IMG/VR virus record: IMGVR_UViG_3300045738_000159
Span: 1-24,264 of that record
Reading direction: 5' to 3' (one strand)
Origin: a virus
DNA length: 24,264 nt
Positions 470-22,565 of this stretch are shown piece by piece. Made by a program: the position numbers and the translations under genes. Each line of letters starts with the position of its first letter. Position 1 is the first letter of the stretch. Below the pieces are notes generated by a model that worked only from the letters and a program-made list of their open reading frames with translations, ran no database searches and had not been told where the DNA came from.

Positions 470-618
470 AACTAATAACAGAAAACATCGGAGTATTATC
501 ACTCATCACAATTTGCGGATGCATAGGGTATTTCCTAGGAAACCCTCTGAAGGGAGTAGTAACTGGAATCGCTATCGTCGCAACTGTCACTCTCGCTTTC
601 GTTTATATCGATCGCTAA
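466..618 (+). CDS. Small protein with two membrane segments (50 aa)
   Basis: Encodes 50 residues starting MKLITENIGVLSLITICG. Two hydrophobic stretches (about residues 8-24 and 30-46) are separated by a short polar turn (GNPLKG), and the tail is basic (YIDR). This suggests a hairpin-like inner membrane protein. The reading frame is open further upstream from a TTG at 373, but the ATG at 466 is preferred because it carries the type III hairpin leader. The size and topology resemble small holin-like or superinfection-exclusion proteins, but nothing here is diagnostic. It is the last gene before the terminator at 651. Confidence 0.6.
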   Translation: MKLITENIGVLSLITICGCIGYFLGNPLKGVVTGIAIVATVTLAFVYIDR

Positions 619-650
619 TAAATTAAAGTCAGAAAAAACTGACTGCTCGA

Positions 651-676
651 GCCTCCTAGAGATAGGAGGCTTTTTT
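651..676 (+). terminator. Intrinsic terminator of the first small-gene unit
   Basis: Perfect 8-bp stem GCCTCCTA (651-658) / TAGGAGGC (663-670), loop GAGA, followed by six T and GTGT. A second hairpin, AGTCAG / CTGACT with an A6 loop, sits just upstream at 627-644. The same GCCTC...GAGGC stem and T-run, often followed by GTGT, recurs at the other terminators of this window. Confidence 0.9.
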
Positions 677-685
677 GTGTCCTCT

Positions 686-794
686 AAAATAATGTGAAAA
701 TAATGAGAATAACTATTGACGTCCTATATCTCGTAGTCTTTATTCCTGTCTATCGGAGCGATTAACGCGACGAACTAAACACGAAAAACACGAC
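686..794 (+). promoter_or_regulatory. Type I promoter-leader, diverged copy (unit 1)
   Basis: Sigma70-like promoter with TTGACG at 716-721, a 17-bp spacer and TTTATT at 739-744. A hairpin follows at 753-773 (TCGGAGCG, loop ATTAA, CGCGACGA), then an A-rich leader ending ACACGACATG at the start codon. It is a diverged relative of the three near-identical copies at 5997, 6614 and 8028. Here two A-T pairs in the middle of the stem are replaced by tandem G.A mismatches, which are tolerated in RNA. Two GTGAA/GAGAA-like half sites lie upstream of the -35, as in the other copies. Confidence 0.75.
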
Positions 795-896
795 ATGACA
801 CTACACATCGAAAAACTTACTCGCAACTACGCAGCAATCTTCGCGCTCGTCGTAGCTATCCCTTCAATCATTCGCATCGTCGAAGCAGCAATCTAA
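795..896 (+). CDS. 33-aa membrane micro-protein
   Basis: First gene after the type I promoter-leader; its ATG is the one in the conserved ACACGACATG context shared with the genes at 6117, 6735, 7137 and 8145. It encodes 33 residues starting MTLHIEKLTRNYAAIF. A short basic N-terminus is followed by one hydrophobic helix (about residues 12-31, rich in Ala, Val and Ile), so a single-pass membrane peptide is likely. It is followed after 18 nt by the gene at 915. Functions of such phage micro-proteins (membrane perturbation, exclusion, toxin) cannot be told from sequence. Confidence rests on the promoter and start context. Confidence 0.6.
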   Translation: MTLHIEKLTRNYAAIFALVVAIPSIIRIVEAAI

Positions 897-914
897 TCCC
901 ACCTACTAAATACT

Positions 915-1145
915 ATGAAACTGGAAATCGAAAATAAATTGTTCAAAAATGAATCTTGCGAAATCTTCAAGCGCATCTGCTCCCTTACAGATATCGAGGT
1001 CGCCGCAAACATTGCAACTCGCATTTGCGATTCAATTAATTACTCTGGCACATTAGAAATCTATCGGGGCGGTAATCACATTGCTTTGCTTTCAAAAGAT
1101 ATTTTCGGCAAGGGGTTCAAACGGGTCGCGATCTTTACCATCTAA
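915..1145 (+). CDS. Small protein, unknown function (76 aa)
   Basis: Encodes 76 residues starting MKLEIENKLFKNES. The pattern suggests a mixed alpha/beta domain: an N-terminal strand, a helix around residues 24-40, then strands (TLEIYRG, HIALLSK, KRVAIFTI). There are three cysteines and no membrane segment. The start lies in the leader ACCTACTAAATACT, which is repeated exactly before the gene at 1205 and resembles ACCTACAAAAATAC of the type I leaders, so this is probably the real initiation region without a Shine-Dalgarno sequence. It is the middle gene of a three-gene unit. I do not recognise a family. Confidence 0.65.
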   Translation: MKLEIENKLFKNESCEIFKRICSLTDIEVAANIATRICDSINYSGTLEIYRGGNHIALLSKDIFGKGFKRVAIFTI

Positions 1146-1156
1146 TCTACTCATCA

Positions 1157-1179
1157 CGGGGAGCAGCATCCTACACTGC
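1157..1179 (+). promoter_or_regulatory. Type II intergenic hairpin, copy 1
   Basis: CGGGG (1157-1161), one spacer base, then a 4-bp stem GCAG (1163-1166) / CTGC (1176-1179) enclosing the 9-nt loop CATCCTACA. The copy at 7089-7111 keeps CGGGG, the spacing and the whole loop, but changes the two outer stem pairs on both sides (AGAG / CTCT). That compensatory change supports a real RNA hairpin. Both copies lie between a small gene and a larger downstream gene of a cassette. The function is unknown to me. Confidence 0.6.
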
Positions 1180-1204
1180 ATCTAATCTCAACCTACTAAA
1201 TACT

Positions 1205-1585
1205 ATGACAGAACTAAAAAAAATCCGCTCCCTACAACGCGCAGCCTCCGAGCTAAAGAAGAATCGGAGGATCGAGCGCGAGAAGGATGTCCTAATAGAG
1301 ACGATCGTCACATATCTACAACTGCAGCGAGAGAAGAACGCGATCGAGATGGGAGGGACTGCTCTCTCTGTTTCCCGCGAGAAGGCTCGGGAGGACGTCC
1401 TGTTTATCCTAGCCTACGAGAAGAATATTAAGTCCGTAGAAGACTTTAGAGCCTTCTCCCTATGGGAAGCCTTCGAGGATCTCTACAAGGAGCTAAACGG
1501 GATCTCTCCTAATTGGCTGCGATGGTATGATCACAGCTACGAGGAATGGCAGGGAATCTTCGAGGATCTGCAGGAAGAAGTCTAA
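1205..1585 (+). CDS. Helical protein, unknown function (126 aa)
   Basis: Encodes 126 residues, almost entirely predicted helix. Residues 1-47 are very basic and heptad-like (MTELKKIRSLQRAASELKK) and could form a coiled coil. The C-terminal half has aromatic residues (SLWEAFEDL, SPNWLRWYDHSYEEW) and ends in an acidic tail. There is no signal, membrane segment or cysteine. It is the last gene of the unit driven by the promoter at 716 and is followed 6 nt after its stop by the terminator stem at 1592. A nucleic-acid or protein-binding role is conceivable, but no family is recognised. Confidence 0.75.
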   Translation: MTELKKIRSLQRAASELKKNRRIEREKDVLIETIVTYLQLQREKNAIEMGGTALSVSREKAREDVLFILAYEKNIKSVEDFRAFSLWEAFEDLYKELNGISPNWLRWYDHSYEEWQGIFEDLQEEV

Positions 1586-1591
1586 GCTCGA

Positions 1592-1621
1592 GCCTCTCTA
1601 CGAAAGTAGGGAGGCTTTTTT
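1592..1621 (+). terminator. Intrinsic terminator of unit 1
   Basis: Ten-base-pair stem from GCCTCTCTAC (1592-1601) and GTAGGGAGGC (1606-1615), with one G.T pair and a GAAA tetraloop (1602-1605), followed by six T. It has the same architecture as the terminators at 651 and 8452. Confidence 0.92.
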
Positions 1622-1733
1622 ATGCCTACAGGAGACTCTACAGGAGCCTCTAGCCTTCCTCGCTAATGAGAAGACTCCTCGAGATCTGCAGGCTCTCCTG
1701 CGTCAAATTAGAGCATCTAAACACGCCTTTTGA
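1606..1733 (+). pseudogene. Possible 3' remnant of a displaced gene
   Basis: Downstream of, and overlapping, the 3' half of the unit 1 terminator is an open frame ending with TGA at 1731-1733 whose last about 35 codons look coding. It reads LQETLQEPLAFLANEKTP and continues RDLQALLRQIRASKHAF, with the same CTA, CAG, GAG, GCT and CCT codons as real genes here. It has no credible start of its own, since upstream it runs into another frame of the gene at 1205. I read it tentatively as the tail of a gene whose 5' part was replaced when unit 1 was inserted. Chance is possible. Confidence 0.25.
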
Positions 1734-1874
1734 CAGCTTTTGACAGGCTGTCGAAAGGGTAAATGGCTAAAACAGGAGAGGGACTACTTTTGACAGGCTC
1801 TGTCATTTTTTATTCTCTAAGGATCAAAGGCTTACAGATTATTGACACGAGTTTTGCCAGCCCGTGTCATTTTT
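1728..1874 (+). repeat. Cluster of three TTGACA hairpins with T-runs
   Basis: Three hairpins each begin with TTGACA. (1) 1728-1756: TTTTGACAGC / GCTGTCGAAA, 10 bp with one T.G pair and a loop containing a second TTTTGACAG. (2) 1791-1811: TGACAG / CTGTCA with a 3-nt loop, followed by T6. (3) 1843-1874: TGACACG / CGTGTCA with a 13-nt loop, followed by T5. The last two have the form of short intrinsic terminators; the first lacks a T-run. Similar arms with different bases suggest a repeated element or a set of operators. No gene is convincing here. Confidence 0.5.
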
Positions 1875-1883
1875 GCCGACACC

Positions 1884-1908
1884 TATATAGTAATGTCATA
1901 ACTATATA
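1884..1908. promoter_or_regulatory. AT-rich inverted repeat
   Basis: Inverted repeat TATATAGT (1884-1891) and ACTATATA (1901-1908) around a 9-nt centre AATGTCATA. The 8-bp arms, their AT-richness and their place between the hairpin cluster and the large hairpin at 1931 would suit an operator or promoter core. I cannot define a -35/-10 pair with standard spacing, so the call is open. Confidence 0.35.
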
Positions 1909-1930
1909 TTGTTGGATTGTTGGATCGCTA

Positions 1931-1993
1931 GAGGACGAATCCGAGACATCGCCTCCGCAAGCGGGGCGGCTGTCTCTACTCGTCCTCCTTTTT
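1931..1993 (+). terminator. Long three-tier hairpin followed by T5 (terminator or structured RNA)
   Basis: Nested stems GAGGACGA (1931-1938) / TCGTCCTC (1980-1987), GAGACA (1943-1948) / TGTCTC (1971-1976), GCC (1951-1953) / GGC (1968-1970) and CCG / CGG around a small CAAG loop make a hairpin of about 57 nt with small internal loops. CTTTTT follows at 1988-1993. That is more structure than a terminator needs, so it may also be the body of a small structured RNA ending at its own terminator. No protein-coding gene is evident in this region. Confidence 0.6.
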
Positions 1994-2002
1994 GGGGGGG
2001 GG
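1994..2002. repeat. G9 homopolymer
   Basis: Nine consecutive G directly after the T5 of the large hairpin. A C8 tract occurs at 2734-2741, just after a stop codon, and a G8 tract at 22385-22392 inside the dehydratase gene. Tracts of this length can slip during replication; here it lies upstream of the start at 2059. Confidence 0.85.
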
Positions 2003-2058
2003 AAGGGAATGTCTATACAGGATTTGACTTAGGGAGGATCCGAGCGCAGGGTTCGAGC

Positions 2059-2328
2059 ATGGAACAAATCTACGAACTTACGGCTCTTCGATCTATTCGA
2101 GAGATTCACATAGCAGTCCGCGACTTGGAGAACCAAGCTGCAGCAACTTCTAAGCGATACAAAAAAGGGATTAAAACCCTACTCGGAGAGGTCTCCGCTG
2201 TCGAGGCGTCTCTAGACGATGGAGGAGTAATCGAAGGCATGGAGCCTTGGAACATCCAAAGCGAGCAGATCAAGTCTCTGATCTCTAATCCCGTCCTATC
2301 TAACATCGGGGAGGATAACTTAATCTAG
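2059..2328 (+). CDS. Small helical protein before the packaging genes (89 aa)
   Basis: Encodes 89 residues starting MEQIYELTALRSIREIH. It is mostly helical and amphipathic over residues 5-55, with a basic patch (SKRYKKGIK) and an acidic C-terminus. There are no cysteines or membrane segments. The frame is open upstream to about 1909, but that part crosses the large hairpin and G9 tract. The ATG at 2059 with an AGGG about 8 nt upstream is the best start, and one of the few here with any Shine-Dalgarno-like sequence. The next gene starts 3 nt after its stop, so the two are likely co-translated. I do not recognise a family. Confidence 0.65.
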   Translation: MEQIYELTALRSIREIHIAVRDLENQAAATSKRYKKGIKTLLGEVSAVEASLDDGGVIEGMEPWNIQSEQIKSLISNPVLSNIGEDNLI

Positions 2329-2331
2329 GCG

Positions 2332-2730
2332 ATGAAGACTGTAAGGCTCATAGAAGGACTAGCTTATCCCTCGGACGAGCCGTCCGAAGTTGCAGAGCAT
2401 CACGCGATCTCCTGCGAGATAGCCGCTCGAGTTCAGCAGCTAGATTCTCTCCTCCCTGGGGATGGCTGCTCCCCTGCAGGAGTCCGCCTCCTTAGCAGGC
2501 TCTCTAATCTTTACAGACAATCCCCCCGAGCCTATCGTCTGCTGCTAGATATGCTCTCCTCGCAGGATAGCTTCTCTCATTCGTTCGAAGAGCTTGCAGC
2601 TAGGCATAATCATTCGCGGCAGTCATGGCTACAGAACGCACAGGCGGACGTAGACATGATCACAGCGGTCTGGCCAGAGGTGGGAGAGGTAATGCGCGAA
2701 TTAATCAAGCGGAGGACGCTAGAGGACTAG
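2332..2730 (+). CDS. Helix-turn-helix-like protein upstream of terminase (132 aa)
   Basis: Encodes 132 residues starting MKTVRLIEGLAYPSDE. The C-terminal half (about residues 78-125) contains SFEELAARHNHSRQSWLQNA followed by a long helix. This resembles the helix-turn-helix of small phage regulators and of sigma region 4-like proteins, a gene type often found just before terminase genes as a late-gene activator. That role is inferred from position and the motif outline only. The gene starts 3 nt after the stop of the one at 2059 and is followed by a C8 tract (2734-2741). A second small packaging factor is an alternative. Confidence 0.6.
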   Translation: MKTVRLIEGLAYPSDEPSEVAEHHAISCEIAARVQQLDSLLPGDGCSPAGVRLLSRLSNLYRQSPRAYRLLLDMLSSQDSFSHSFEELAARHNHSRQSWLQNAQADVDMITAVWPEVGEVMRELIKRRTLED

Positions 2731-2834
2731 CAGCCCCCCCCGTTATTAGGTTCTCCTGCCCGAAAACAGGCTGCAAGTCGCGCTCGAACCCTTGCGTTTT
2801 TATGAGATTGAGTCTCAAATCCTAATTGAATAAC

Positions 2835-3341
2835 ATGAATAGACCTATCGTAAAAACTTGGAAGAAGGTCGCAGAGGCTATCGGAGTCACTCCGCAGACG
2901 CTTTCTAAGTGGAGGCGTGAGTCGGATGACTGTCCGCAGACGAAGGATCTCGAGGCATGGGATCTATGGTCTGCAAACAGAGCGAACTCGCAGGAACGCG
3001 GCGGAGGACGGATCGCTATCGAGGGTAGGGAATACACTGCAGCCGACATCGCAGATCTCAAAGCAAAGCTTATCGCTGCACAGGAGCGCAGGGAAAACGC
3101 GATGGCACAGATCCGAGAGATCGAACTAGCACAGAAGCGCGACAACTTAATACCAGAGTCCGAGGCGACGGAGACTCTGATCAAACTTTTAACTCCCCTA
3201 AGACGCTTACTAGATGCTCTGCCTCGACAAGTCGCTTCGCAAGCTAATCCTGCAAATCCCAATATCGCAGAGCTTGCAATTCGGAACGGACTTGACGACA
3301 GGGTCTTTAGTGAGATTGAAAAACTGTTTCTCGACAGGTAG
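2835..3341 (+). CDS. Terminase small subunit, Nu1-like
   Basis: Encodes 168 residues. An N-terminal winged-helix/helix-turn-helix is visible at about residues 6-28 (KTWKKVAEAIGVTPQTLSKW). A charged central helix follows (about 75-115, DLKAKLIAAQERRENAMAQI) of the kind that mediates oligomerisation, then a C-terminal region that would contact the large subunit. This layout matches lambda Nu1 and related DNA-packaging proteins, which bind the packaging site on DNA. The TTG at 2826 would add MNN; ATG 2835 is the ordinary choice. The next gene lies 75 nt downstream, and the large terminase subunit follows one gene later. Confidence 0.75.
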   Translation: MNRPIVKTWKKVAEAIGVTPQTLSKWRRESDDCPQTKDLEAWDLWSANRANSQERGGGRIAIEGREYTAADIADLKAKLIAAQERRENAMAQIREIELAQKRDNLIPESEATETLIKLLTPLRRLLDALPRQVASQANPANPNIAELAIRNGLDDRVFSEIEKLFLDR

Positions 3342-3416
3342 TCTAGCTATTAAGATGCTAGTTGGCTTAGTCGTGTTTGCCATTTCGTCACCTGCTCGAG
3401 AAACCAATTTTAAAAA

Positions 3417-4184
3417 ATGAAAAATCAGATGTCTATAAATTCAACGGGATTCGACGACATGCTTCGAACTCTAAAGAAAAAGACAGGAGCCTCCTATGCT
3501 CAAGTCATAAAGGGAGTGACAGGATCTATCCTAGAGAATACTGCTAGGAATACTAAAAAATCTAGCGCGAAGATTCTAAAGGAAGCGGTCGAAGAGTCCC
3601 TCTCTACTCGCTTCGTGTCTTCTGTCGGAGACAAGATCCGAAAGGCTAAAGACGGATCTCTTATCTTTAAAGAGAACGGATCTGCCGCAGGTCGTTGGAT
3701 ACGAGTTCGAAGATCCTACAAGCTAGGAGCAGTCGGAGCTAAGAATCCAGCAGGGCGTTTTTTAGACAAAGACGTTCAGAAGAGAATAAACAAGGCTCTC
3801 GGACAGCTTCGAAAACTGCAGGCTAAGATCATTAAATATAAGAAGTCAAAGCTCGCATCGTCGCAGGGATCATGGCTAGAGATCATGCGGAAGCTGCGGA
3901 TCCCCGTTAAGGTTACTCGAGGTCTAGGAGCAGCTATGAAGGTTAAGATCGGGTCGAAGCATTCTAAGGTCGTGTCGGGAAAGCTCTTTAAGACTAAATA
4001 TACTGCAGAAATAATCGTAAGGAGTCGATCGGAGTCCGCTCTCAACCCTAAAGGGGGAGGGATCTTCGCCTTTCAGAAAGCATTTAACGGACAAGCGAAA
4101 GCCTTTGCTACTGCTGCGTCTAAGGATCTAGAAGGATACGTAAAAAATTTCGCGACTCGCAATGGCTTTTCTGTTAAAAAATGA
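3417..4184 (+). CDS. Basic gp10/Z-like virion protein between the terminase subunits (255 aa)
   Basis: Encodes 255 residues, very rich in Lys and Arg. The N-terminal helix region (FDDMLRTLKKKTGASYAQVI, then LENTARNTKKSSAKILKEAV) and the C-terminal helix (FNGQAKAFATAASKDLEGYV) resemble HK97 gp10 and lambda Z, the neck or tail-completion proteins. The middle is a long basic stretch rich in Lys, Arg and Gly. In lambda-type genomes Z lies after the capsid gene; here the gene sits between small and large terminase and overlaps the large subunit start by 23 nt, which is unusual. Family assignment is from overall pattern only. A DNA-binding packaging accessory is the main alternative. Confidence 0.5.
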   Translation: MKNQMSINSTGFDDMLRTLKKKTGASYAQVIKGVTGSILENTARNTKKSSAKILKEAVEESLSTRFVSSVGDKIRKAKDGSLIFKENGSAAGRWIRVRRSYKLGAVGAKNPAGRFLDKDVQKRINKALGQLRKLQAKIIKYKKSKLASSQGSWLEIMRKLRIPVKVTRGLGAAMKVKIGSKHSKVVSGKLFKTKYTAEIIVRSRSESALNPKGGGIFAFQKAFNGQAKAFATAASKDLEGYVKNFATRNGFSVKK

Positions 4185-5997
4185 AGTAGGGAAACTGTTT
4201 TCTCCTAGACGTCTGAAGCCTCCTGTAGATTGGGCGTTCGATAACTGCGTTTTACGCGACAACGTCTCCGAGCTGCCTGGATCCCTAAAGGTTTTCCCAT
4301 ACGCGCAGGAGCCTCTTAACTCTCTAATCGATCCTACTGTAAGTAAGATCACTCTCTGCTGGGGATCACAGTCTAGCAAGACTACGACTATGTATGCAGG
4401 GATCGGCTATCTCCTGTCGGAGTTTCCGAAGGACACGCTATGGATCATGCCTAGCGCGGAGAACGCTCGTAACTTTTCTAAGGGAAGATGGCTCCCCTTC
4501 ATCGACGACTGTAAACCGCTAAAGGAGCAATGTCCTGTCAGCGCAGCTACAGGCAGAGTAGACACTGATAAGATCACGAACATGCGACAGGAGTTCCTAT
4601 CCTGCACTCTAACCTTCGCGGGAGCAGGATCGGAGAATAATGTAAAGTCGGCTCCCGTCGCCTATCTAGTTCTCGACGAGATCGACGAGATCGACGCAGA
4701 CATTCGACTCGCTGCTCTCGAGCGGATTAAAGGTCGGCGAGAATATAAGATTATTCAGACATCGACTCCGAAGGAAGAGACAGGAGGGATCTGGGAGGAG
4801 TTCCTCTACGGCGATCAGCGTAAATATTTTATGCCTTGTCCTCACTGCGAGGAGTTCATCGAGTTCACTTGGAAACAAAAGGACAAGGACGGAAACTCTC
4901 GCTACTCTATCTCGTTCGACGAGGAAGCAAAGCTCGAGGACGGAGGATACGACTACGACTTAGTCGCATCTACAGCAGCCTATACTTGTCCCTGCTGCGA
5001 CGAGAAGATCCTCGACGCTCATAAGCCGACGATGGTAAAGAGCGGAGAATGGAGAGCGCAAAATCCGAATGCTCCTGCGAATCATAGGAGCTATCATCTT
5101 AACTCCCTTTACGCTCCCGCGATGACTTTCGCGACTCTCATTATTAATTGGCTGCAGGTTAGCTCCTCTATGCATGGTCTAAAAAAGTTCGTGCAGGGAA
5201 ATCTCGCGGAGCCTTGGAAAGACGACTGGGCGAACCAAGAGCAGGCAGAAGCGAACGAACTCGAACTCGATTACGAGCAAGGAGATCTCCGAGGCGAGTA
5301 TCGCGTAATGGGAGTCGATACGCAGACGGACTCCTTCTGGTTCGTCGTCCGAGGCTTCGATCGCGACGGGACTAGCTATCTGATCGACTGCGGACAGGTC
5401 GCCTCGTTCTCCGAGTTAGACATCACTTACGACATGCATAAATGTCACGCAGCGATCATCGACTGCGCAGGCGACAGAACGTCGCAGATCTACGAGGAAG
5501 TATTCCGTCGTCGCTCTAAATGGTTCGGCTCTCGAGGCTGGAAAAACCTGCAGGGCGATCAGCCTTATCGTCTACAGATGAAGGATCCTTTTACGGGAGA
5601 TAACAAAGGACGAGGAGGTCGATCTAAGATCCGCTATCTTCATGTTAATAAAAGCATCTACGAGGAGGAACTTTCTCGCCTGCGCTCTAGACAGCTCTCG
5701 GGATTCCACACTTTCACGGACACTCCGAAAGTCTACTACGATCAGCTCTTCTCTACTTATTGGACGAAGGAGACGGATCGGAGCGGACATATCAAAGTCG
5801 TAAAGAAGCTGAAGCGCAGCAAGGGCGATCACTTATGGGACTGCGAGATCCTCGTTCGCGCTCTCTCTAAGTTTATCGGGATCGCTCGAATCGATAGAGC
5901 CGATATGCCTACGATGCTAGATGAAAAGCCGAAGCCGAAGAAGAGAGACGCCTCGACTAGGAACAGAAGCGCGGCTGCTTTTTGGCAATCAAAATAG
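4162..5997 (+). CDS. Terminase large subunit, lambda GpA family
   Basis: ATP-driven DNA translocase and nuclease of the packaging motor, 611 residues. The Walker A-like loop is GSQSSKTT (residues 68-75). Walker B is YLVLDEIDE (about 168-176), and the coupling motif region is STPKEETGG (201-209). A zinc ribbon typical of the GpA family has CPHC (226-229) and CPCC (277-280). The C-terminal nuclease domain starts near VMGVDT (382-387), continues with AIIDCAGD (431-438) and ends near GDHLWDCE. Length is close to lambda A (641). ATG 4162 overlaps the preceding gene. The stop codon TAG (5995-5997) shares its last base with the start of the repeated promoter-leader A, so the next cassette begins exactly here. 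Confidence 0.95.
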   Translation: MAFLLKNEVGKLFSPRRLKPPVDWAFDNCVLRDNVSELPGSLKVFPYAQEPLNSLIDPTVSKITLCWGSQSSKTTTMYAGIGYLLSEFPKDTLWIMPSAENARNFSKGRWLPFIDDCKPLKEQCPVSAATGRVDTDKITNMRQEFLSCTLTFAGAGSENNVKSAPVAYLVLDEIDEIDADIRLAALERIKGRREYKIIQTSTPKEETGGIWEEFLYGDQRKYFMPCPHCEEFIEFTWKQKDKDGNSRYSISFDEEAKLEDGGYDYDLVASTAAYTCPCCDEKILDAHKPTMVKSGEWRAQNPNAPANHRSYHLNSLYAPAMTFATLIINWLQVSSSMHGLKKFVQGNLAEPWKDDWANQEQAEANELELDYEQGDLRGEYRVMGVDTQTDSFWFVVRGFDRDGTSYLIDCGQVASFSELDITYDMHKCHAAIIDCAGDRTSQIYEEVFRRRSKWFGSRGWKNLQGDQPYRLQMKDPFTGDNKGRGGRSKIRYLHVNKSIYEEELSRLRSRQLSGFHTFTDTPKVYYDQLFSTYWTKETDRSGHIKVVKKLKRSKGDHLWDCEILVRALSKFIGIARIDRADMPTMLDEKPKPKKRDASTRNRSAAAFWQSK

Positions 5998-6116
5998 GCT
6001 CTAAAAGAAAGTGAAGAAATAGTGAAAATAGGCATTGACGTCCTATATTCTGTAGTTCTTTATCTGTCATATCGAAGCGATTAACGCTTCGAATCTAACC
6101 TACAAAAATACACGAC
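5997..6116 (+). promoter_or_regulatory. Type I promoter-leader, copy A
   Basis: Two GTGAA half sites 11 bp apart (6011, 6022), TTGACG (6035-6040), an 18-bp spacer, TTTATC (6059-6064), then a perfect 8-bp hairpin TCGAAGCG (6072-6079), loop ATTAA, CGCTTCGA (6085-6092), and an A-rich leader ending ACACGACATG at 6117. With a start point about 7 nt after the -10 (near 6071), the hairpin would be the very 5' end of the mRNA. Such 5' stems are known to protect mRNA in enterobacteria (for example ompA). Copy A differs from copy B by one inserted A. Confidence 0.85.
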
Positions 6117-6368
6117 ATGAAACTCATTCAATCACAGCACCAGTCCATCGAAGGAAACAAGGCCATTGATCTAATCAACATTGATCTACTAGAGAAGGAG
6201 ATCAAATCCACATATAAACATGCTAGTGACTTGCGCGAAGCTGGTTGCCTTAGTGACGCAGAGGATGCCATTGAGGGTCTCATGGCTGAATATGAGCAAC
6301 TCATTGCACTTGACCCTGAGAATGACCTACTGATTGAGCTTGAGGCTGAATTGATGGTTAACGCTTGA
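6117..6368 (+). CDS. Cassette A protein 1, acidic, unknown (83 aa)
   Basis: Encodes 83 residues starting MKLIQSQHQSIEGNKAID. It is acidic and predicted almost all-helical, with two helix-loop-helix-like halves (IDLLEKEIKSTYKHASDLRE and LSDAEDAIEGLMAEYEQL) resembling a tetratricopeptide-type hairpin. The acidic C-terminus is rich in Glu and Leu. No membrane segment. Codons such as GCC, ATT, TTG and GAG-CTT are more frequent than in the structural genes, hinting at a different origin. It is first in a moron-like cassette inserted after the large terminase. No family recognised. Confidence 0.65.
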   Translation: MKLIQSQHQSIEGNKAIDLINIDLLEKEIKSTYKHASDLREAGCLSDAEDAIEGLMAEYEQLIALDPENDLLIELEAELMVNA

Positions 6369-6393
6369 ATATATCAAAAAAAACTTCTAATCT

Positions 6394-6576
6394 ATGAAAA
6401 ATAAAACAGCAAAACAGCACGCCAAGTCAGCTATTCGATTAGCACTGTGGGGGCGAATGTCAGATCTAATCTCTGAAGTTGACGAGGGTTTCGAGTCTAG
6501 CAGCGAAAAAAACAAAGCAGAGATCAAAAGGCATATACAAATATATTTAGATAGAATTGAAAAATATATAAAGTAA
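6394..6576 (+). CDS. Cassette A protein 2, basic, unknown (60 aa)
   Basis: Encodes 60 residues starting MKNKTAKQHAKSAIRLALWG. It is basic at both ends and helical throughout (second helix EKNKAEIKRHIQIYLDRI). It starts 25 nt after the gene at 6117 in an A-rich leader with no Shine-Dalgarno sequence. A weak terminator follows at 6590. It is a compact all-helical protein that could bind nucleic acid or a partner protein; nothing in the sequence decides. It shares the cassette with the acidic protein upstream, so an acidic/basic pair that interacts is possible but unproven. Confidence 0.6.
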   Translation: MKNKTAKQHAKSAIRLALWGRMSDLISEVDEGFESSSEKNKAEIKRHIQIYLDRIEKYIK

Positions 6577-6589
6577 TTTATAAGCTTTC

Positions 6590-6613
6590 AGCTCTTACGC
6601 TGCGAGCTTTTTT
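6590..6613 (+). terminator. Weak intrinsic terminator of cassette A
   Basis: Stem AGCTC (6590-6594) / GAGCT (6604-6608) with a 9-nt loop, followed by a T-run (6608-6613). It is weaker than the other terminators in this window but similarly placed, directly before the next repeated promoter. Confidence 0.55.
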
Positions 6614-6734
6614 GGCTCTAAAAAGAAAGTGAAGAAATAGTGAAAATAGGCATTGACGTCCTATATTCTGTAGTTCTTTATCTGTCATATCGAAGCGATT
6701 AACGCTTCGAATCTAACCTACAAAAATACACGAC
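6614..6734 (+). promoter_or_regulatory. Type I promoter-leader, copy B
   Basis: Same structure as copy A: TTGACG (6653-6658), an 18-bp spacer, TTTATC (6677-6682), hairpin TCGAAGCG (6690-6697), ATTAA, CGCTTCGA (6703-6710), and a leader ending ACACGACATG at 6735. The copy is identical to A over about 123 bp except one extra A near its 5' end. The match with copy C continues past the start codon into ACTACTACTAC. Confidence 0.85.
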
Positions 6735-7079
6735 ATGACTACTACTACAAACTCCTTCGAAAAATCCAACTTCAACTGGGACGGAATGTATCTCACCTAC
6801 GGCGACATCCTCTCCCCTCTCTACAGCGAGACTCACATGTTTATCGCTCGCTTCAAATATCGTAACGTTCCGATTACTAAAGCTAAGTTCATGAAAGAGC
6901 TTATCGCTTCGAAGATCTCTGTCGCAGACTACAAGGCTAAGATCGACGGCGGGATGACTCCTCACGCAATCCTCGACGAGAATAACGAAGGATGGTCGAA
7001 GCGCGTCGCAGCAGCTTGGAACGAGAAGATCATTAAGAAGTCTCAGTCCCGCTACTCTCACGTTCTTAAACTAGCATAA
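6735..7079 (+). CDS. Cassette B protein 1, unknown (114 aa)
   Basis: Encodes 114 residues beginning MTTTTNSFEKSNFNWDG. It is rich in aromatic residues near the N-terminus and ends with a basic helix (AAAWNEKIIKKSQSRYSHVL). There are no cysteines, signal peptide or membrane helix. The run of ACT codons after ATG is shared with the genes at 8145 and, partly, 7137. Strongly biased codons (CTC, TAC, AAG, ATC, CGC) resemble the capsid gene and suggest high expression. It is separated from the next gene by the type II hairpin. No family recognised. Confidence 0.7.
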   Translation: MTTTTNSFEKSNFNWDGMYLTYGDILSPLYSETHMFIARFKYRNVPITKAKFMKELIASKISVADYKAKIDGGMTPHAILDENNEGWSKRVAAAWNEKIIKKSQSRYSHVLKLA

Positions 7080-7088
7080 ATCAATCTA

Positions 7089-7111
7089 CGGGGCAGAGCA
7101 TCCTACACTCT
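7089..7111 (+). promoter_or_regulatory. Type II intergenic hairpin, copy 2
   Basis: CGGGG (7089-7093), one spacer base, AGAG (7095-7098), loop CATCCTACA (7099-7107), CTCT (7108-7111). Relative to copy 1 at 1157-1179 the loop is unchanged and the two outer stem pairs are replaced by other Watson-Crick pairs. The leader then continues to CAAAAATACACGACATG, the same end as the type I leaders. Confidence 0.6.
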
Positions 7112-7136
7112 AACTTAACTTTCAAAAATACACGAC

Positions 7137-7961
7137 ATGACTACTTCTACTAAAATCCAAAAGCATCGCCTCGCAGGAGGCTTCGAGCCTTTAGCTTACA
7201 CTTACGTCGATCAGTTCGATCACAGGCAGAACGAAGTTACGGATCCTCAAAGCGGCAGCTACGGCGAGGCTCACGATCCTATCGACGCAGACTATAATGA
7301 CGAACTCGAGTCGAACGGCTACGACTGCGATCACTGCACTCACTGCGGCTCGCGTCTCTCGAGCGGATCTCTCTATCGCCACACTAGCGGCGAGCTAATC
7401 GTAATCGGTAACATCTGCGTTAATCGCCTAGCCTTCTCGACTGCGGACGAGATACAGAAGGCACATCGCGATAATCGGATTCAGCAGGGACTGCTCCGAG
7501 GAATCATGAACGCGAGTTGGAGGTGGCGTATCGTCGGCGAGTTCCTGCAGCAGAACGCAGAGAAGAACGACATCCTCGAGGACATGCTTAACAAGCTCGC
7601 AAAATACTTCTCCCTCTCTCGTCGTCAAATCTCTTTCGCTCGCAAGCTCGTCCGCGAAGCAGACTCGAAGCAGGCTCTCGCAGCAGAGCGCGAAGCGAAG
7701 ATGGTAGACGCTGCAGACTGGGAAGACGGACGCTTCGAGATCGAAGGAAAAATCCTTTCTGTAAAATGGAAAGACAACGACTTCGGAGGATCCTACAAGA
7801 TGATCGTAGAACTCGCAGACGGACGACGCTGCTGGGGATCAGTTCCGAGCAAGCTAGGCGACTCGGAAGTCGGCGACGTCGTTCGCTTTAAAGCAACCTT
7901 CAGCAAGTCGAACGACGACTCTAAGTTCGCATTCTTTAAGAGACCTACAGTCTCTAAGTAG
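7137..7961 (+). CDS. Zinc-finger plus OB-fold-like phage protein (274 aa)
   Basis: Encodes 274 residues. A treble-clef-like zinc site is visible at about residues 62-90: YDCDHCTHCGSRL, then GNICVNRL, giving C-x2-C-x2-C and a fourth cysteine. A charged helical middle follows. The C-terminal domain (about 200-272) has the outline of an OB fold: FEIEGKILSVKWKDNDFGG, then a KMIVELADGRRCWG segment, then GDVVRFKATF and FAFFKRPT. I know this architecture as a recurrent uncharacterised family in diverse phages. Nucleic-acid binding is the natural inference but is not proven. It is second in cassette B, behind the type II hairpin, with capsid-like codon bias. Confidence 0.75.
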   Translation: MTTSTKIQKHRLAGGFEPLAYTYVDQFDHRQNEVTDPQSGSYGEAHDPIDADYNDELESNGYDCDHCTHCGSRLSSGSLYRHTSGELIVIGNICVNRLAFSTADEIQKAHRDNRIQQGLLRGIMNASWRWRIVGEFLQQNAEKNDILEDMLNKLAKYFSLSRRQISFARKLVREADSKQALAAEREAKMVDAADWEDGRFEIEGKILSVKWKDNDFGGSYKMIVELADGRRCWGSVPSKLGDSEVGDVVRFKATFSKSNDDSKFAFFKRPTVSK

Positions 7962-7988
7962 TAAACGTGTAAAGTGTTAGATAGGTTA

Positions 7989-8022
7989 AGCCTACTCGGA
8001 GTCGTGTCCGAGTAGGCTTTTT
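7989..8022 (+). terminator. Intrinsic terminator of cassette B
   Basis: Twelve-base-pair perfect stem AGCCTACTCGGA (7989-8000) / TCCGAGTAGGCT (8007-8018), loop GTCGTG, followed by T5 and CGTGT. Confidence 0.93.
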
Positions 8023-8027
8023 CGTGT

Positions 8028-8144
8028 CTAAAATAAAGGTGAAGAAATAGTGAAAATAGCTATTGACGTCCTATATTCTGTAGTTCTTTATCTGTCATAT
8101 CGAAGCGATTAACGCTTCGAATCTAACCTACAAAAATACACGAC
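8028..8144 (+). promoter_or_regulatory. Type I promoter-leader, copy C
   Basis: TTGACG (8063-8068), an 18-bp spacer, TTTATC (8087-8092), hairpin TCGAAGCG (8100-8107), ATTAA, CGCTTCGA (8113-8120). It is identical to copies A and B from the -35 to the start codon at 8145, about 87 bp, with two substitutions just upstream of the -35 and more differences further 5'. Confidence 0.85.
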
Positions 8145-8438
8145 ATGACTACTACTACTACAAAATCAGAAGATTGGACTTCAGAAACTGTTACTTTTAA
8201 AAGCAGCAAGACATCGATCGAGATGCTCGGCTATAAGTTCTCGATCGAGAAAGACGTTAAGCAAAGTCACGGCGAGCTTGGCTTCGAATGCTGGAACATT
8301 ATCGAAAGCGGCAGCGTCGCTTTTAGCGTCTCGAAATTTGACGACGATAAAGAATACATGTCAATCTGCGGAAGCATCGTAAGAGAAGCTCCTACAGTCG
8401 CAGAGGCTGCTGCGAAAATGATCGCTAACATCTACTAG
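8145..8438 (+). CDS. Cassette C protein, unknown (97 aa)
   Basis: Encodes 97 residues beginning with five Thr codons after Met. It looks like a small alpha/beta fold: strands around EMLGYKFSIEKD, CWNIIESGSVAFSVS and EYMSICGS, then a C-terminal helix (APTVAEAAAKMIANIY). It has two cysteines and no membrane helix. It is the only gene between promoter C and the terminator at 8452, a one-gene moron. Codon bias is like the other cassette B and C genes. I do not recognise it. Confidence 0.7.
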   Translation: MTTTTTKSEDWTSETVTFKSSKTSIEMLGYKFSIEKDVKQSHGELGFECWNIIESGSVAFSVSKFDDDKEYMSICGSIVREAPTVAEAAAKMIANIY

Positions 8439-8451
8439 GAATAAAGCTCGA

Positions 8452-8481
8452 AGCCTCCCTGCGAAAGCAGGGAGGCTTTTT
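8452..8481 (+). terminator. Intrinsic terminator of cassette C
   Basis: Eleven-base-pair perfect stem AGCCTCCCTGC (8452-8462) / GCAGGGAGGCT (8467-8477) with a GAAA tetraloop, then T5 and CGTGT. It stands directly before the head genes, so read-through, antitermination or a separate promoter is needed for them. Confidence 0.93.
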
Positions 8482-8514
8482 CGTGTCCGCAAATTGACAG
8501 CGAGTCGCTTTTTA

Positions 8515-8757
8515 ATGGCGTCTACTACTACACTAGCTCAACTGATCGCGATCCGCGATAAGCTTCTAACTGCGATAATGAAACTCGCGGAGGACGGGAT
8601 CACGTCCTACAGCATCGGCGATCAGACTTTCTCGCTCGCAGACGTCGGAGATCTAATTACGCAAGTCGAGAAGCTAGACAAGCTTATCGCTCTGAAGGAT
8701 CGAACTCTAGGAGGTCGAGGACGCAATCGAATCACGCTGCAGAATTTTAATGGATAA
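8515..8757 (+). CDS. gpW-like head-tail joining protein (80 aa)
   Basis: Encodes 80 residues starting MASTTTLAQLIAIRDKLL. A helix (about 5-26), a short hairpin (TSYSIGDQTFSL) and a second helix (about 43-62) reproduce the alpha-beta-alpha layout of lambda W, which completes the filled head and lies between terminase and portal in lambda, as here. ATG 8515 was chosen over a TTG at 8494, because the latter lies in the TTGACA motif found before several other starts. It overlaps the portal gene by 8 nt. The basic tail (RTLGGRGRNRI) also fits W-like proteins. Assignment is by size, fold outline and position. Confidence 0.65.
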   Translation: MASTTTLAQLIAIRDKLLTAIMKLAEDGITSYSIGDQTFSLADVGDLITQVEKLDKLIALKDRTLGGRGRNRITLQNFNG

Positions 8758-10210
8758 AAAAACTAAAAAACCGAATCGAGTATCTTTTGCATTTAAGCAA
8801 TTTGTTCGAGCCTTCCGAGGTTACGACGCAGTCCGTAATACTCGCTATCGAGCGCGACGGGGGACTACGCCTATTAGGTCGGAAGAGATGGAGCTTAACT
8901 CGAGCGATCGCGACAGGCTCGTCGCTACATGCTTAGAGTTCCGACGGAATAATCCTGTAGTCGCCTCCCTGTCTCGGCTGCGTAAAGCAGACATCGTAGG
9001 CAGAGGACTAATTCCGCAGCCTGCGACAGGAGACGACGAGACAGATTCTAATATCCTCGATGCATGGATGAAGTTCGCGGAATCTCCCGAAGCTACGGGA
9101 ATGATGGACATGCGAGAGATGCAGCAGCAGATGATCGACTCGCTGCTCTTCTACGGCGACTGCGGTTTAATCGTAGGTAAAGACAACGTTCAGTTTATTG
9201 ACGGTTCGCGAATCGGAAACCCGAGCGGCGAATTTACATCTAGCGAAGACTCTAGCTTTCAGAACGGAGTCGAGGTCGATAAGATCGGAAAGCCTTTATC
9301 CTACGTCGTAGGAAATCGCGTATCTGGAACCCTACGAGACACGAAGCTAATCCCTGCTCGAGACTTTATCCCGTTCCTGCGTCGAGTTCGTCCTAATCAG
9401 TATCGCGGAGTCCCAGAACTAGCGACAGTGATTAACACTCTGCAGGACTGCGACGAATACGATCGAGTCGAGATGATGGCTGCTAAGGTTAGCGCGTCGC
9501 TTTCGGTCGTCGTCAAGCGCGAGAATAGCTACGAGTTCGAACTACAGAATAGACTCGATGCAGGAGAGCAGGACTCGGAAGGAAATCTCGAGCAGTTCGA
9601 ACCTGGACGCTTTCACTACATGGAGCCAGGCGAGGACGTGAGCGTAATCAGCAGCAACGGCAGACCAAACGTAGACGGGATCCAATGGGTTAGTTATCTC
9701 TTACGTAAAGTAGGAAGCGCAGTAGGGATCCCTCTAGAGTTCCTGCTAATGGAGATCGGAGGAAGCTCCTTCTCTGCATCGCAGGGAGTCGTCCTACAGT
9801 ATCAGCAGACAGTAGAGAGCTATCAGTCGGATCTAATCCGAGTAATGGGTCGCCTCTATCGTCGATGGCTTTCGCAGCAAATCGCAGCAGAAAAGATCGA
9901 TGTCGCGGCTGCAGCTAATCCCTTCGGAGTTCGTTGGCAGCGTCCTGCCTTCCGTTGGATCAATAAGTCAGCACAGGTAAAAGCGGACATGGAATACTTC
10001 CGAGCGGGAGCGATGTCGCTCGATGATATTACTGCTCCATTCGGATATACTGCAGAGGAAGTCCTGCTAAGAAAAGCGCAGAATATAAAGAAAGCGCAGC
10101 AGATCGCAGCAGACGCAGGACTCGATTGGCGCGAACTAATTAATCCATTCCCTACATCTATGTCGGGGAACTACTCCGAGATCGTATCTGCCGACGAAAA
10201 AATAATCTAG
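8750..10210 (+). CDS. Portal protein, lambda gpB family
   Basis: Forms the dodecameric ring at the head vertex through which DNA is packaged and ejected. It has 486 residues (lambda B: 533). Family-like segments are visible: the basic N-terminus with YRARRG; SSDRDRLVATCLEFRRNNPV followed by ADIVGRGLIP (about 45-90), typical of lambda-type portals; the wing region with RDFIPFLRRVRPNQYRGVPE; and the stem/clip region with GGSSFSASQGVVLQYQQTVE. The C-terminus contains FRAGAMSLDDITAPFGYTAE, also typical. It is translationally coupled to the gpW-like gene (8-nt overlap). Confidence 0.93.
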   Translation: MDKKTKKPNRVSFAFKQFVRAFRGYDAVRNTRYRARRGTTPIRSEEMELNSSDRDRLVATCLEFRRNNPVVASLSRLRKADIVGRGLIPQPATGDDETDSNILDAWMKFAESPEATGMMDMREMQQQMIDSLLFYGDCGLIVGKDNVQFIDGSRIGNPSGEFTSSEDSSFQNGVEVDKIGKPLSYVVGNRVSGTLRDTKLIPARDFIPFLRRVRPNQYRGVPELATVINTLQDCDEYDRVEMMAAKVSASLSVVVKRENSYEFELQNRLDAGEQDSEGNLEQFEPGRFHYMEPGEDVSVISSNGRPNVDGIQWVSYLLRKVGSAVGIPLEFLLMEIGGSSFSASQGVVLQYQQTVESYQSDLIRVMGRLYRRWLSQQIAAEKIDVAAAANPFGVRWQRPAFRWINKSAQVKADMEYFRAGAMSLDDITAPFGYTAEEVLLRKAQNIKKAQQIAADAGLDWRELINPFPTSMSGNYSEIVSADEKII

Positions 10211-12855: not shown

Positions 12856-12886
12856 AGCCTCTCCTTTAATCGGGAGAGGCTTTTTT
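12856..12886 (+). terminator. Intrinsic terminator after the capsid gene
   Basis: Nine-base-pair stem AGCCTCTCC (12856-12864) / GGAGAGGCT (12873-12881), a short loop, T6 (12881-12886) and GTGT. It would limit transcription after the most strongly expressed head genes; tail genes follow on the same strand. Confidence 0.9.
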
Positions 12887-12911
12887 GTGTTTACAAATCG
12901 TCTATTAGTAA

Positions 12912-20568: not shown

Positions 20569-21585
20569 ATGAAAATCGCTACAGTTATAGTCGCTACTAA
20601 ATCCTATCTAGATCCTCTCGAGGTATGCCTTCGCAGGACTAGGACTGCGGTCGAGAACGAGAGCGCAGAGTTTGAGCATAGGTTAATCGTAGTAACTGAT
20701 AAAGCTAGTAAGACTCGAGTCGAGGAGATGACTACGGACTTCGAGGATCGCGAGATTATAGCGATCGAGATGGAGGAGAGCGGCGAACATTATAAGAAGG
20801 ATCGACAGATCCTTATCGCCTCCCTGCAGTCTACAGGATTCGACGCTGCGCGGCGTTGGAACTGCGACTTTCTATGGAGCGTAGAAGCAGACGTCCTCGT
20901 TCCGCATAATGCTCTCTCCGTCTCTCTAGACATGCTACGCTTCGACGGAGGCTATTACGATGTCTCCTTCGTTACTTATCCCTCGCAGGGAGGCGGGAGC
21001 TTTCTAGGAGGTTACGGCAGCTATCAGCATCCTATCGCGGAGGACTATCTCCCCGAGGAGCGAATCATTCCTAGTAAGCTGCAGCTCCTCATGGACTCCT
21101 GCGAGGAGAGACTAAAGAAGGAGGGACTCGATAGGGACTCTATCGATAAGGAGCATAAGAGAATGGGGAGGATCCTCGAGAAGGTTAAGCAATGTCCTCC
21201 GAGCGGAAACGTCTTCGAGCTTAACGCTAAGAAATGGCGTCGCAGAGGATGGCTCGATAACAGTCACGTCGGGACAGGTCGAGGAGCAGTAATCGAGACG
21301 GACTGGACAGGACTCGGCTGCACTCTAATGAGTAAGAAAGCAGCAGCTCTAGCGCACTTCGACGGATACGACGGAGGAGGAACGCAGGATCTCTATCTTA
21401 ATTGGCACAAGTGGAAACCCGAAGGACTTCGCTTTTGCTGCATCACTCACACTGTCTGCGATCACGTCGTAAGAGACGAAAAGGCGGAGGGAGGACTTAC
21501 TACTCTAAAGAGCTATCACGAAGCAGAGGGAGAGACTAAAGGACATCTACGCTACAGGAGAGTTCCATTCCATAAATTTATATGA
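20569..21585 (+). CDS. GT-A-like glycosyltransferase (338 aa)
   Basis: Likely transfers sugar from a nucleotide donor. The N-terminus MKIATVIVATKS begins like a Rossmann-type GT-A domain. The segment CDFLWSVEADVLVPHNAL (about 99-116) has the hydrophobic strand and an ExD (EADV, 106-109) in the place of the metal-binding DxD motif. The acceptor-side region DWTGLGCTLMSKKAAALAHF (about 245-264), then TQDLYLNWHKWKPEGLRF and ITHTVCDH, completes a GT-A outline. The central helical insertion (about 160-215) is long. It is translationally coupled to the dehydratase by ATGA and flanked by fibre genes. The substrate is unknown. Confidence 0.65.
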   Translation: MKIATVIVATKSYLDPLEVCLRRTRTAVENESAEFEHRLIVVTDKASKTRVEEMTTDFEDREIIAIEMEESGEHYKKDRQILIASLQSTGFDAARRWNCDFLWSVEADVLVPHNALSVSLDMLRFDGGYYDVSFVTYPSQGGGSFLGGYGSYQHPIAEDYLPEERIIPSKLQLLMDSCEERLKKEGLDRDSIDKEHKRMGRILEKVKQCPPSGNVFELNAKKWRRRGWLDNSHVGTGRGAVIETDWTGLGCTLMSKKAAALAHFDGYDGGGTQDLYLNWHKWKPEGLRFCCITHTVCDHVVRDEKAEGGLTTLKSYHEAEGETKGHLRYRRVPFHKFI

Positions 21586-22565
21586 AAAGACTACTAATAA
21601 CAGGCAGCGCAGGATTCGTCGGATCTCATACGGCAAAATGGATCCTAGAACATACAGATTGGGAAGTCGTCGGACTTGACTCCTTCCGTCATTTAGGAGA
21701 CGCAGAGCGGATCTCTGCGGATCCTCGATACTCTATGATCTGTCACGATCTAAACGCTCCCATCTCGAAGCGAACTGCGGCTCGCATCGGAGAGATAGAC
21801 TACATTATTAACTGCGCGTCGATCTCTCACGTAGACACTTCGATCGAAGATCCCGTCTACGTGTGGGAATCAAACACTCGTCTAATCGGAAACATCCTGC
21901 AGTATGCTCGAGAGCTTCCTAGCCTCGAAAAATTTATCCATTGCTCCACAGATGAAGTCTTCGGATCTGCTTACGGCGATCACTGTCATCACGAATGGGA
22001 CGTCATAGCTCCCTCTAATCCTTACGCAGCATCGAAGGCAGCGCAGGACTCTCTCTGCTTCGCTTATTGGAGAACCTACGGAACGCCTATAGCGATTACT
22101 CACTGCATGAACATGATCGGGACTATGCAAGACGCGGAGAAGTATCTCCCGAAGATCGTCTCTCGAGTTCATAAGGGAGAGACTGTAACAGTTCACGGAC
22201 AGCCCGATAAGGTCGGATCTAGAATGTATATCGACTGTCGAAATCTAGCGGACGCATGGCTATTTATGCTGCAGGAGATCGACTTCTCTTCCTACGGAGA
22301 GGAAACTCGAATGACTAAATTTAACATCGCAGGACTAGAGGAGATTACGAATCTAGAACTAGCGCAAAAGATCGCGGATCGAATGGGGGGGGATCTAAAA
22401 TACGAGTTCGTAGACTTCCATAAGACTAGAGCAGGACACGATCTACGATACGCTCTAGACAGCAGCAAGATCTACGCTGCAGGATGGAAGCCTCCTATCG
22501 ATCTCGAGCAGACATTCGACGAGGTTATCGATCACGTCCGAAAGAATGAAGCTTGGCAGGAGTGA
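21582..22565 (+). CDS. dTDP-glucose 4,6-dehydratase-like (RmlB family) SDR
   Basis: Extended short-chain dehydrogenase acting on a nucleotide sugar, 327 residues (E. coli RmlB 361). NAD-binding GSAGFVG is at 8-14. The catalytic STDEVFG at 122-128 carries the Thr-Asp-Glu (123-125) that distinguishes 4,6-dehydratases. The Y-x3-K motif YAASK lies at 148-152, and RAGHDLRYALDSSKI at 283-297 is the RmlB C-terminal signature. All key residues are present, so it should be active. It would supply a 4-keto-6-deoxy sugar. A G8 tract (22385-22392) lies in the coding region and could slip. It is coupled to the upstream glycosyltransferase. Confidence 0.88.
   Translation: MKRLLITGSAGFVGSHTAKWILEHTDWEVVGLDSFRHLGDAERISADPRYSMICHDLNAPISKRTAARIGEIDYIINCASISHVDTSIEDPVYVWESNTRLIGNILQYARELPSLEKFIHCSTDEVFGSAYGDHCHHEWDVIAPSNPYAASKAAQDSLCFAYWRTYGTPIAITHCMNMIGTMQDAEKYLPKIVSRVHKGETVTVHGQPDKVGSRMYIDCRNLADAWLFMLQEIDFSSYGEETRMTKFNIAGLEEITNLELAQKIADRMGGDLKYEFVDFHKTRAGHDLRYALDSSKIYAAGWKPPIDLEQTFDEVIDHVRKNEAWQE

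Follow-up and report, generated by a model that had tools for sequence, protein, structure and literature searches.

A promoter-leader repeated before unrelated phage genes as a candidate module for gene switching and gene exchange

How can a phage gain or swap small genes, a group that often includes anti-defence genes, without damage to its operons? This question is raised by a 24,264-base IMG/VR virus record (IMGVR_UViG_3300045738_000159), the whole of which is called the window here, in which a promoter-leader of about 120 bp, which we call E1, recurs in front of small genes. We propose that an apparently lytic group of phages employs E1 repeatedly as a control module, at once a switch for genes and a socket into which they are swapped, and we give this reading a probability of about 0.72. 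At the level of sequence, which is the evidence base throughout (the contigs compared are metagenomic), E1 is a repeat that is reused at several sites, stands at the head of a replication operon and coincides with exchange junctions at start codons. The window holds four copies; three of these, with the cassettes of genes behind them, all sit in the interval between the genes for the large terminase and a gpW-like adaptor:

682 to 797, plus strand: copy D of E1, before the terminase region, with TTGACG at 716-721, a -10-like TTTATT at 739-744, the dyad at 753-773 and ATG at 795.
4162 to 5997, plus strand: large terminase subunit (GpA type, by domain search), left flank of the site.
5997 to 6119, plus strand: copy A, with TTGACG at 6035-6040, a -10-like TTTATC at 6059-6064, the dyad or hairpin at 6072-6092 and ATG at 6117.
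6614 to 6737, plus strand: copy B, with TTGACG at 6653-6658, the -10-like hexamer at 6677-6682, the dyad at 6690-6710 and ATG at 6735.
8027 to 8147, plus strand: copy C, with TTGACG at 8063-8068, the -10-like hexamer at 8087-8092, the dyad at 8100-8120 and ATG at 8145.
8515 to 8757, plus strand: gpW-like head-tail adaptor (phrog_118), right flank of the site.

The first-pass annotation of this DNA had described copies A, B and C as identical from the -35 to the start codon, and the alignment bears this out. The three share an exact block of 86 nucleotides (nt), ATTGACG...ACATG (from ATTGAC to ATG), and A and B share one of 117 nt; in 50 first-order Markov sequences of the window's length and composition, exact repeats reached at most 18 nt. 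BLAST identity to B is 99% for A, 100% for B, 96% for C and 80% for D, and the copies correspond to repeat families D1/D2. Between B and C, identity extends 14 nt into the coding sequence, counted from the start codon (ATGACTACTACTAC). As had been stated, copy A starts with the final base of the TAG (5995-5997) that ends the terminase gene, and the names given to the two flanking genes were right: the terminase is of the GpA type, with ATPase and nuclease parts, and the adaptor matches phrog_118. The diverged upstream copy that had been said to drive another unit is copy D; its first gene (795-896), for a peptide of 33 amino acids (aa), had gone unlisted.

E1 has a regular layout: an AT-rich upstream stretch, a TTGAC -35, a TATCT-like -10 at 18-19 nt, the dyad 'TCGnnGCGAnnnACGCnnCGA', a leader and the ATG. 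Given that spacing, the dyad falls at the expected 5' end of the transcript. Between dyad and ATG lie 20-30 nt that are A/C-rich and poor in Shine-Dalgarno (SD) sequence, and in folding predictions the leaders form a hairpin at the 5' end and leave the A/C-rich tail unpaired (z = -5.8 for copies A-C). At least four unrelated phage types (L064/L070, L069/L078/L087, L084, L114-L116) carry a 25-nt E1 core 20-25 nt ahead of a start codon; the left part of these cores was fixed by the search pattern, while the first scan left the right part (RACGAAC) and the start codon free. By its sequence, E1 looks like an early-type promoter of the phages themselves, joined to a 5' hairpin and an SD-poor leader; it does not look like a device specific to morons (acquired genes with their own promoter and terminator). 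The single match of the core in genomes, in Alicyclobacillus, has no gene start right behind it and was read as chance. A degenerate promoter pattern found no match in viral contigs.

Two further features of these regions deserve mention. The spacer between -35 and -10 differs between sites, and some copies carry an inverted repeat of their own there (GGGGCA-GGTG-TGCCCC in L018, ~2640-2670; GAGGAC-GGACGA-GTCCTC in L027, ~3240-3265), possibly an operator. Cassette proteins, among them those starting at 6735, 7137 and 8145 in the window and at many other loci, often begin with MTTTT or MTTST (ATGACTACTACT...), so the shared block reaches into the coding region; this common coding start is a possible translation signal of the start region.

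A terminase search gave 54 related loci, and an iterated hidden Markov model detected E1 in many of them. Copies stand behind the genes for the large terminase and the major head protein, ahead of the terminase region and in front of the replication operon. It starts 10-20 nt past the terminase stop codon in about 26 related contigs, down to ~83% terminase identity. The site would thus be old and the genes behind it recent, and the recent spread of the element to this stop codon that had been suggested is not what the relatives show. Terminase and gpW lie 28-241 bp apart in the diverged clades L042-L048, compared with 845-2929 bp in the remaining loci. One relative of 36,331 bp (G001), apparently near complete because its ends lie in adjoining tail genes, holds six E1 copies and is itself SD-poor, with a loose SD-like motif at 9 of 40 starts. 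Its copy at 11939 heads a co-directional operon; L066 also has E1 there, and the L066 homologues of the operon's genes are a lytic transglycosylase, a PD-(D/E)XK nuclease, DnaA-C, a RuvC-like protein and a primase-helicase. In the early regions of L074 (77-283) and L075 (1364-1564), two promoter-leaders stand back to back before divergent genes. The phage group is apparently lytic: 14 related records contain no tyrosine integrase, and in a repressor search of these records with HTH_3 only, the matches over the cut-off were all the small terminase. Because E1 heads the replication operon and these records hold neither a tyrosine integrase nor, by HTH_3, a clear repressor, E1 would be the phages' own promoter class.

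A lack of other genomes with the core beside different genes had been named beforehand as a refuting outcome, and it is not what the comparison gave. The genes directly behind E1 fall into 37 protein clusters, with related and unrelated uncultured phages pooled. Single families also occupy several sites: MKITNAIKK stands behind E1 after the terminase (L006, L012), before it (L011) and in the replication operon (L066), and MNNETNELR after the terminase in L018, L019, L022, L024, L026 and L054 and in the early region in L074 and L075.

The swapping of cassettes, which the first-pass annotation had said the direct repeats would allow, can be seen directly in two genomes, L008 and L012, that are ~99.4% identical where collinear (98.4-99.7%) and in which, at three places, one shared leader is followed by different genes. 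Identity crosses the leader and ends, counted from the first base of the respective start codon, 3 nt short of it at L008 position 3306, 12 nt past it at 5316 and 9 nt past it at 10855. It returns at 4036 (the leader of the next gene), 5997 (just past a stop codon) and 11229 (at a stop codon). At the third position the operon consists, depending on the phage, of MKLKNYST, of MKLKNYST and MNYKLLN, of MNYKLLN, or of MSNSIEI and MKNYRTLKS, as if single genes had been gained and lost. Among 168 same-site pairs with unrelated first genes, which share ancestry and so are not independent, homology ends between -25 and +25 nt from the ATG (median +4). Junctions are thus legible to a few bases at a defined control block, in genomes ~99.4% identical; with this precision one can test what part regulatory homology plays in the turnover of phage genes.

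Presence and absence of cassettes between fixed flanks, also anticipated, is clearest at the capsid site:

12856 to 12895, plus strand: terminator after the major head protein, a second cassette site that is empty in the window and filled in L068, L006, L049, L008, L012 and L013.

The empty site measures 77-81 bp (L011, the window, L050) and the filled site 537-1150 bp. Empty, it consists of the terminator followed by 'GTGTTTACAT'; filled, it has the same terminator, E1, one or more genes, a second terminator and the same 'GTGTTTACAT', with a GGCTTTTTYGTGTYTA-like terminator tail at both ends.

These observations suggest how the module may work. E1 would be active as an early promoter, with the replication operon under its control, and extra copies would drive small accessory operons set between late genes, each closed by a terminator of a shared family. 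The dyad would become the 5' hairpin of the transcript and act as RNA. Since genes start with a shared leader (E1, or internally the elements E2 and E3 described below) and operons end in shared terminators, recombination could exchange single genes; homologous recombination is the probable agent that would insert, delete or replace them at these blocks. Such swaps would leave both the late genes and the expression of the swapped genes undisturbed. Because the terminators lie inside the late region, late transcription would have to pass them by readthrough or antitermination, or restart. E1 also provides a search handle, in that genes behind it in uncultured phages are probably accessory or early.

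Internal genes of the same operons are headed by a second element, E2, a covarying hairpin with the conserved loop CATCCTACA and the consensus ACGGGG-n-NNNG-CATCCTACA-CNNN. The window has two copies:

1155 to 1181, plus strand: E2 upstream of the open reading frame at 1205, 46.3 bits.
7087 to 7113, plus strand: E2 between the two genes of cassette B, 40.9 bits.

Further copies lie in L066 (4914-4940), L195 (7589), L159 (two, minus strand) and many other loci. In 91 unique sequences, collected with a pattern that left the stem unfixed, the three stem pairs form in 99, 99 and 97%, compared with 76, 46 and 91% expected from independent columns; a separate figure of 100% pairing is partly built in, as those sequences were filtered for the stem, and 99/99/97% is the unbiased value. 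The loop TCCT is the sole partner of GGGG, and AGGG is seen with TCTT or TCTC alone; this makes a GGGG/UCCU pseudoknot likely. E2 is clearly an RNA element. The strict pattern is present in at least 119 viral stretches, with ~5 chance matches by rough estimate, and E2 lies 29-74 nt before a start codon in 82 of the 91 sequences, compared with 65% at random positions; 78 of those 82 codons are ATG. Rfam gave no match at E <= 1 for window positions 500-9000 and six E2-bearing loci, and the E2 variants searched for were not found in isolated phages or plasmids. On this evidence E2 is a candidate new RNA family.

In one clade a third leader hairpin, E3 (GCCTCAGCCTCTTCGGAGGCGAGGC, with a UUCG loop), lies 5' of internal cassette genes:

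L008, ~3533-3560: E3.
L012, ~3592-3620 and ~5566-5594: E3, two copies.
L050, ~3173-3200: E3.

Eight gene families stand behind different elements (E1, E2 or E3) in different phages, so genes would move between the positions that these elements head. A broader proposal, which we hold tentatively and think rather less probable than otherwise, is that E1 and E2 belong to a set of leader RNAs, not yet described, that turn every gene start into an exchangeable socket in phages of an SD-poor host lineage. E2 would then be a new RNA class of wide occurrence through which inserted genes can be translated, and genes would pass between E1- and E2-headed positions.

Several results weigh against E1 as a promoter, leader and exchange module. 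Certain E1 variants fold poorly (z -0.6 and -0.8). A generic sigma-70 scan reported neither the TTGAC pair nor a clear promoter excess. No close relative with an empty terminase-gpW site was found, the empty sites lying in clades of 63-73% terminase identity, and the shared ancestry of the 168 pairs lessens their weight. Covariation in the hairpin is weak: 0.80 of cells are paired compared with 0.77 after shuffling, and 80 of 2000 shuffles were equally good. We therefore dropped it as proof of the hairpin. The dyad keeps TCG..GCGA...ACGC..CGA while its two middle pairs vary freely, which accounts for the weak signal and leaves room for a DNA operator. The dyad would then bind a repressor or shut-off protein, the repeats would form a regulon kept similar by selection, and gene swapping would be incidental. 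Conservation of the outer (TCG/CGA) and inner (GCG/CGC) parts with a free middle, and the closeness of the dyad to the expected +1, agree with such an operator. However, the HTH_3 search gave no repressor candidate, the unrelated phage types that carry the dyad 20-25 nt before start codons would all need the same protein, and E2 in the same operons is clearly RNA. We regard an operator as unlikely.

Classic morons, the label first given to the cassettes, would be independently acquired genes that are expressed while the rest of the phage or prophage is silent. The cassettes' own predicted promoters and terminators, their location between late genes, the unassigned functions of their genes and the lower G+C content of the second gene of cassette A are what one would expect of morons. 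In contrast, the control region is shared with the replication operon, the leader stays at its site while the gene changes, and neither a tyrosine integrase nor an HTH_3 match over the cut-off other than the small terminase was found in the 14 records, so that morons in the usual sense are quite improbable here. If one cassette of this genome had recently been duplicated in tandem or copied by gene conversion, with no special role for the repeat, that would explain the 117-nt identity of A and B and the similarity that extends upstream of the leader proper, and two L010 copies do have the private loop GACAAACGC in common. Yet concerted evolution of E1 within genomes was not seen: copies in one genome are no closer than copies in different genomes and diverge widely within other genomes, which does not support gene conversion as a general process. 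The cassette genes are also unrelated to one another, and the same element occupies the same sites in many phages. These facts contradict duplication as a full account, which is very improbable; recent local copying, peculiar to the window, may at most explain the extra similarity of A, B and C. Joining of metagenome fragments at the ~120 bp repeats deserves thought since the 117-nt repeat is near read length, but the order 274-aa gene, E1, 97-aa gene and gpW recurs in three independent contigs (L017, L049, L059) and collinear stretches of 1281 bp and more run across leaders. An assembly artefact is scarcely credible.

The closest known system is the PeSL (promoter-early stem-loop) cassette, and E1 extends that idea to the start codon. 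PeSLs, reportedly described by Arbiol in 2010 and Comeau in 2014, are said to be repeated blocks of early promoter and terminator stem-loop between small dispensable genes. In both systems a promoter and a terminator stem-loop recur between small genes; in many E1 copies the terminator tail is followed directly by E1, a join missing after the terminase, where a stop codon precedes the copy. In both, recombination at the blocks shuffles genes among close relatives, here as far as sequences can tell. Unlike the T4-type phages, the present group has a lambda-type head, a genome of ~37 kb, a GpA-type terminase and a lambda-type portal, and its promoter differs from the T4 early consensus. The E1 block includes a conserved 5' leader and reaches as far as the start codon, where the junctions lie; a second RNA element heads internal genes; and cassettes sit in the late region while the block also heads the replication operon. 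For the T4-type phages RB49 and phi1, PMC4503421 cites PeSL cassettes as mediating shuffling between close relatives.

Lambdoid morons resemble these cassettes in having, by sequence, a promoter and terminator of their own between late genes, and in being absent from otherwise collinear relatives, as at the capsid site (empty in the window, L011 and L050, filled in L068, L049 and L008). They differ in that one phage promoter class is shared here, operons are multigene and there is no sign of lysogeny; the term fits the layout and probably not the expression. Lambdoid boundary or linker sequences are short homologies at gene borders that promote modular exchange, whereas here a regulatory leader forms the border. 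In Cluster K mycobacteriophages, SAS/ESAS are short conserved sequences, often with an inverted repeat, before the start codons of many unrelated genes (PMC3203893), a position that E1 shares. SAS are 13 bp long, lie at the start codon and have a partial Shine-Dalgarno character (PMC3203893), whereas E1 covers ~120 bp, comprises a promoter, a dyad and an SD-poor leader, and has a link here to gene exchange. The 13-bp Cluster K SAS, GGGATAGGAGCCC, is absent from the E1 leader sequences.

The genes and terminators of the window's cassettes are as follows:

795 to 896, plus strand: predicted membrane peptide of 33 aa, first gene behind copy D, with a homologue behind the same leader in L100.
6117 to 6368, plus strand: cassette A gene 1, 83 aa, without a detected relative.
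6394 to 6576, plus strand: cassette A gene 2, 60 aa, 35% G+C, function not assigned.
6590 to 6613, plus strand: weak terminator-like hairpin (5-bp stem) and T-run closing cassette A.
6735 to 7079, plus strand: cassette B gene 1, 114 aa, with a homologue behind the same leader in L016.
7137 to 7961, plus strand: cassette B gene 2, 274 aa, whose N part is Cys-rich and whose C-terminal domain is OB-fold-like.
7988 to 8024, plus strand: good intrinsic terminator, 13-bp stem, before copy C.
8145 to 8438, plus strand: cassette C gene, 97 aa, in a family of 10 behind the same leader.
8452 to 8482, plus strand: good terminator AGCCTCCCTGC-GAAA-GCAGGGAGGCTTTTT closing cassette C, its sequence shared with the terminators at 1591 and 12856 (family D8).

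The first-pass picture of one or two small genes per cassette, each cassette ended by a terminator, thus stands in part: the gene of 274 aa is not small, and the signal after cassette A is weak. Nearly all cassette proteins lack an assigned function, as had been said. Pfam gave nothing above cut-off for ten cassette genes, models of defence systems no convincing match, and a search with the 83-aa gene no relatives. The 274-aa protein is related to phage proteins annotated as single-stranded DNA-binding, and its structure model has a mean predicted local distance difference test score (pLDDT) of 80.6 and a predicted template modelling score (pTM) of 0.48; this predicted OB-fold-like kinship would fit an early role.

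Gene order in the window is lambda-like: small terminase, large terminase, lambda-type portal, gpW-like adaptor, a scaffold-type protein, major head protein and tape measure. The closest isolate terminases are ~26% identical or less. Terminase, portal and helicase have only distant relatives among isolates, so the host cannot be read from them. The window's DNA gave only chance matches to isolated phages, the terminase alignment no match in bacterial and archaeal genomes, and a search for tRNAs as a host clue none. By eye, glycosyltransferase-like and NAD-dependent epimerase-like genes lie within the tail module (20569-22565) and are kept in L074 and G001. A 31-nt direct repeat at 82-112 and 439-469 (97% alike, CAACAGCCCACTAGGGCACACACAATTATG) places a small hairpin (GCCC/GGGC) immediately 5' of start codons.

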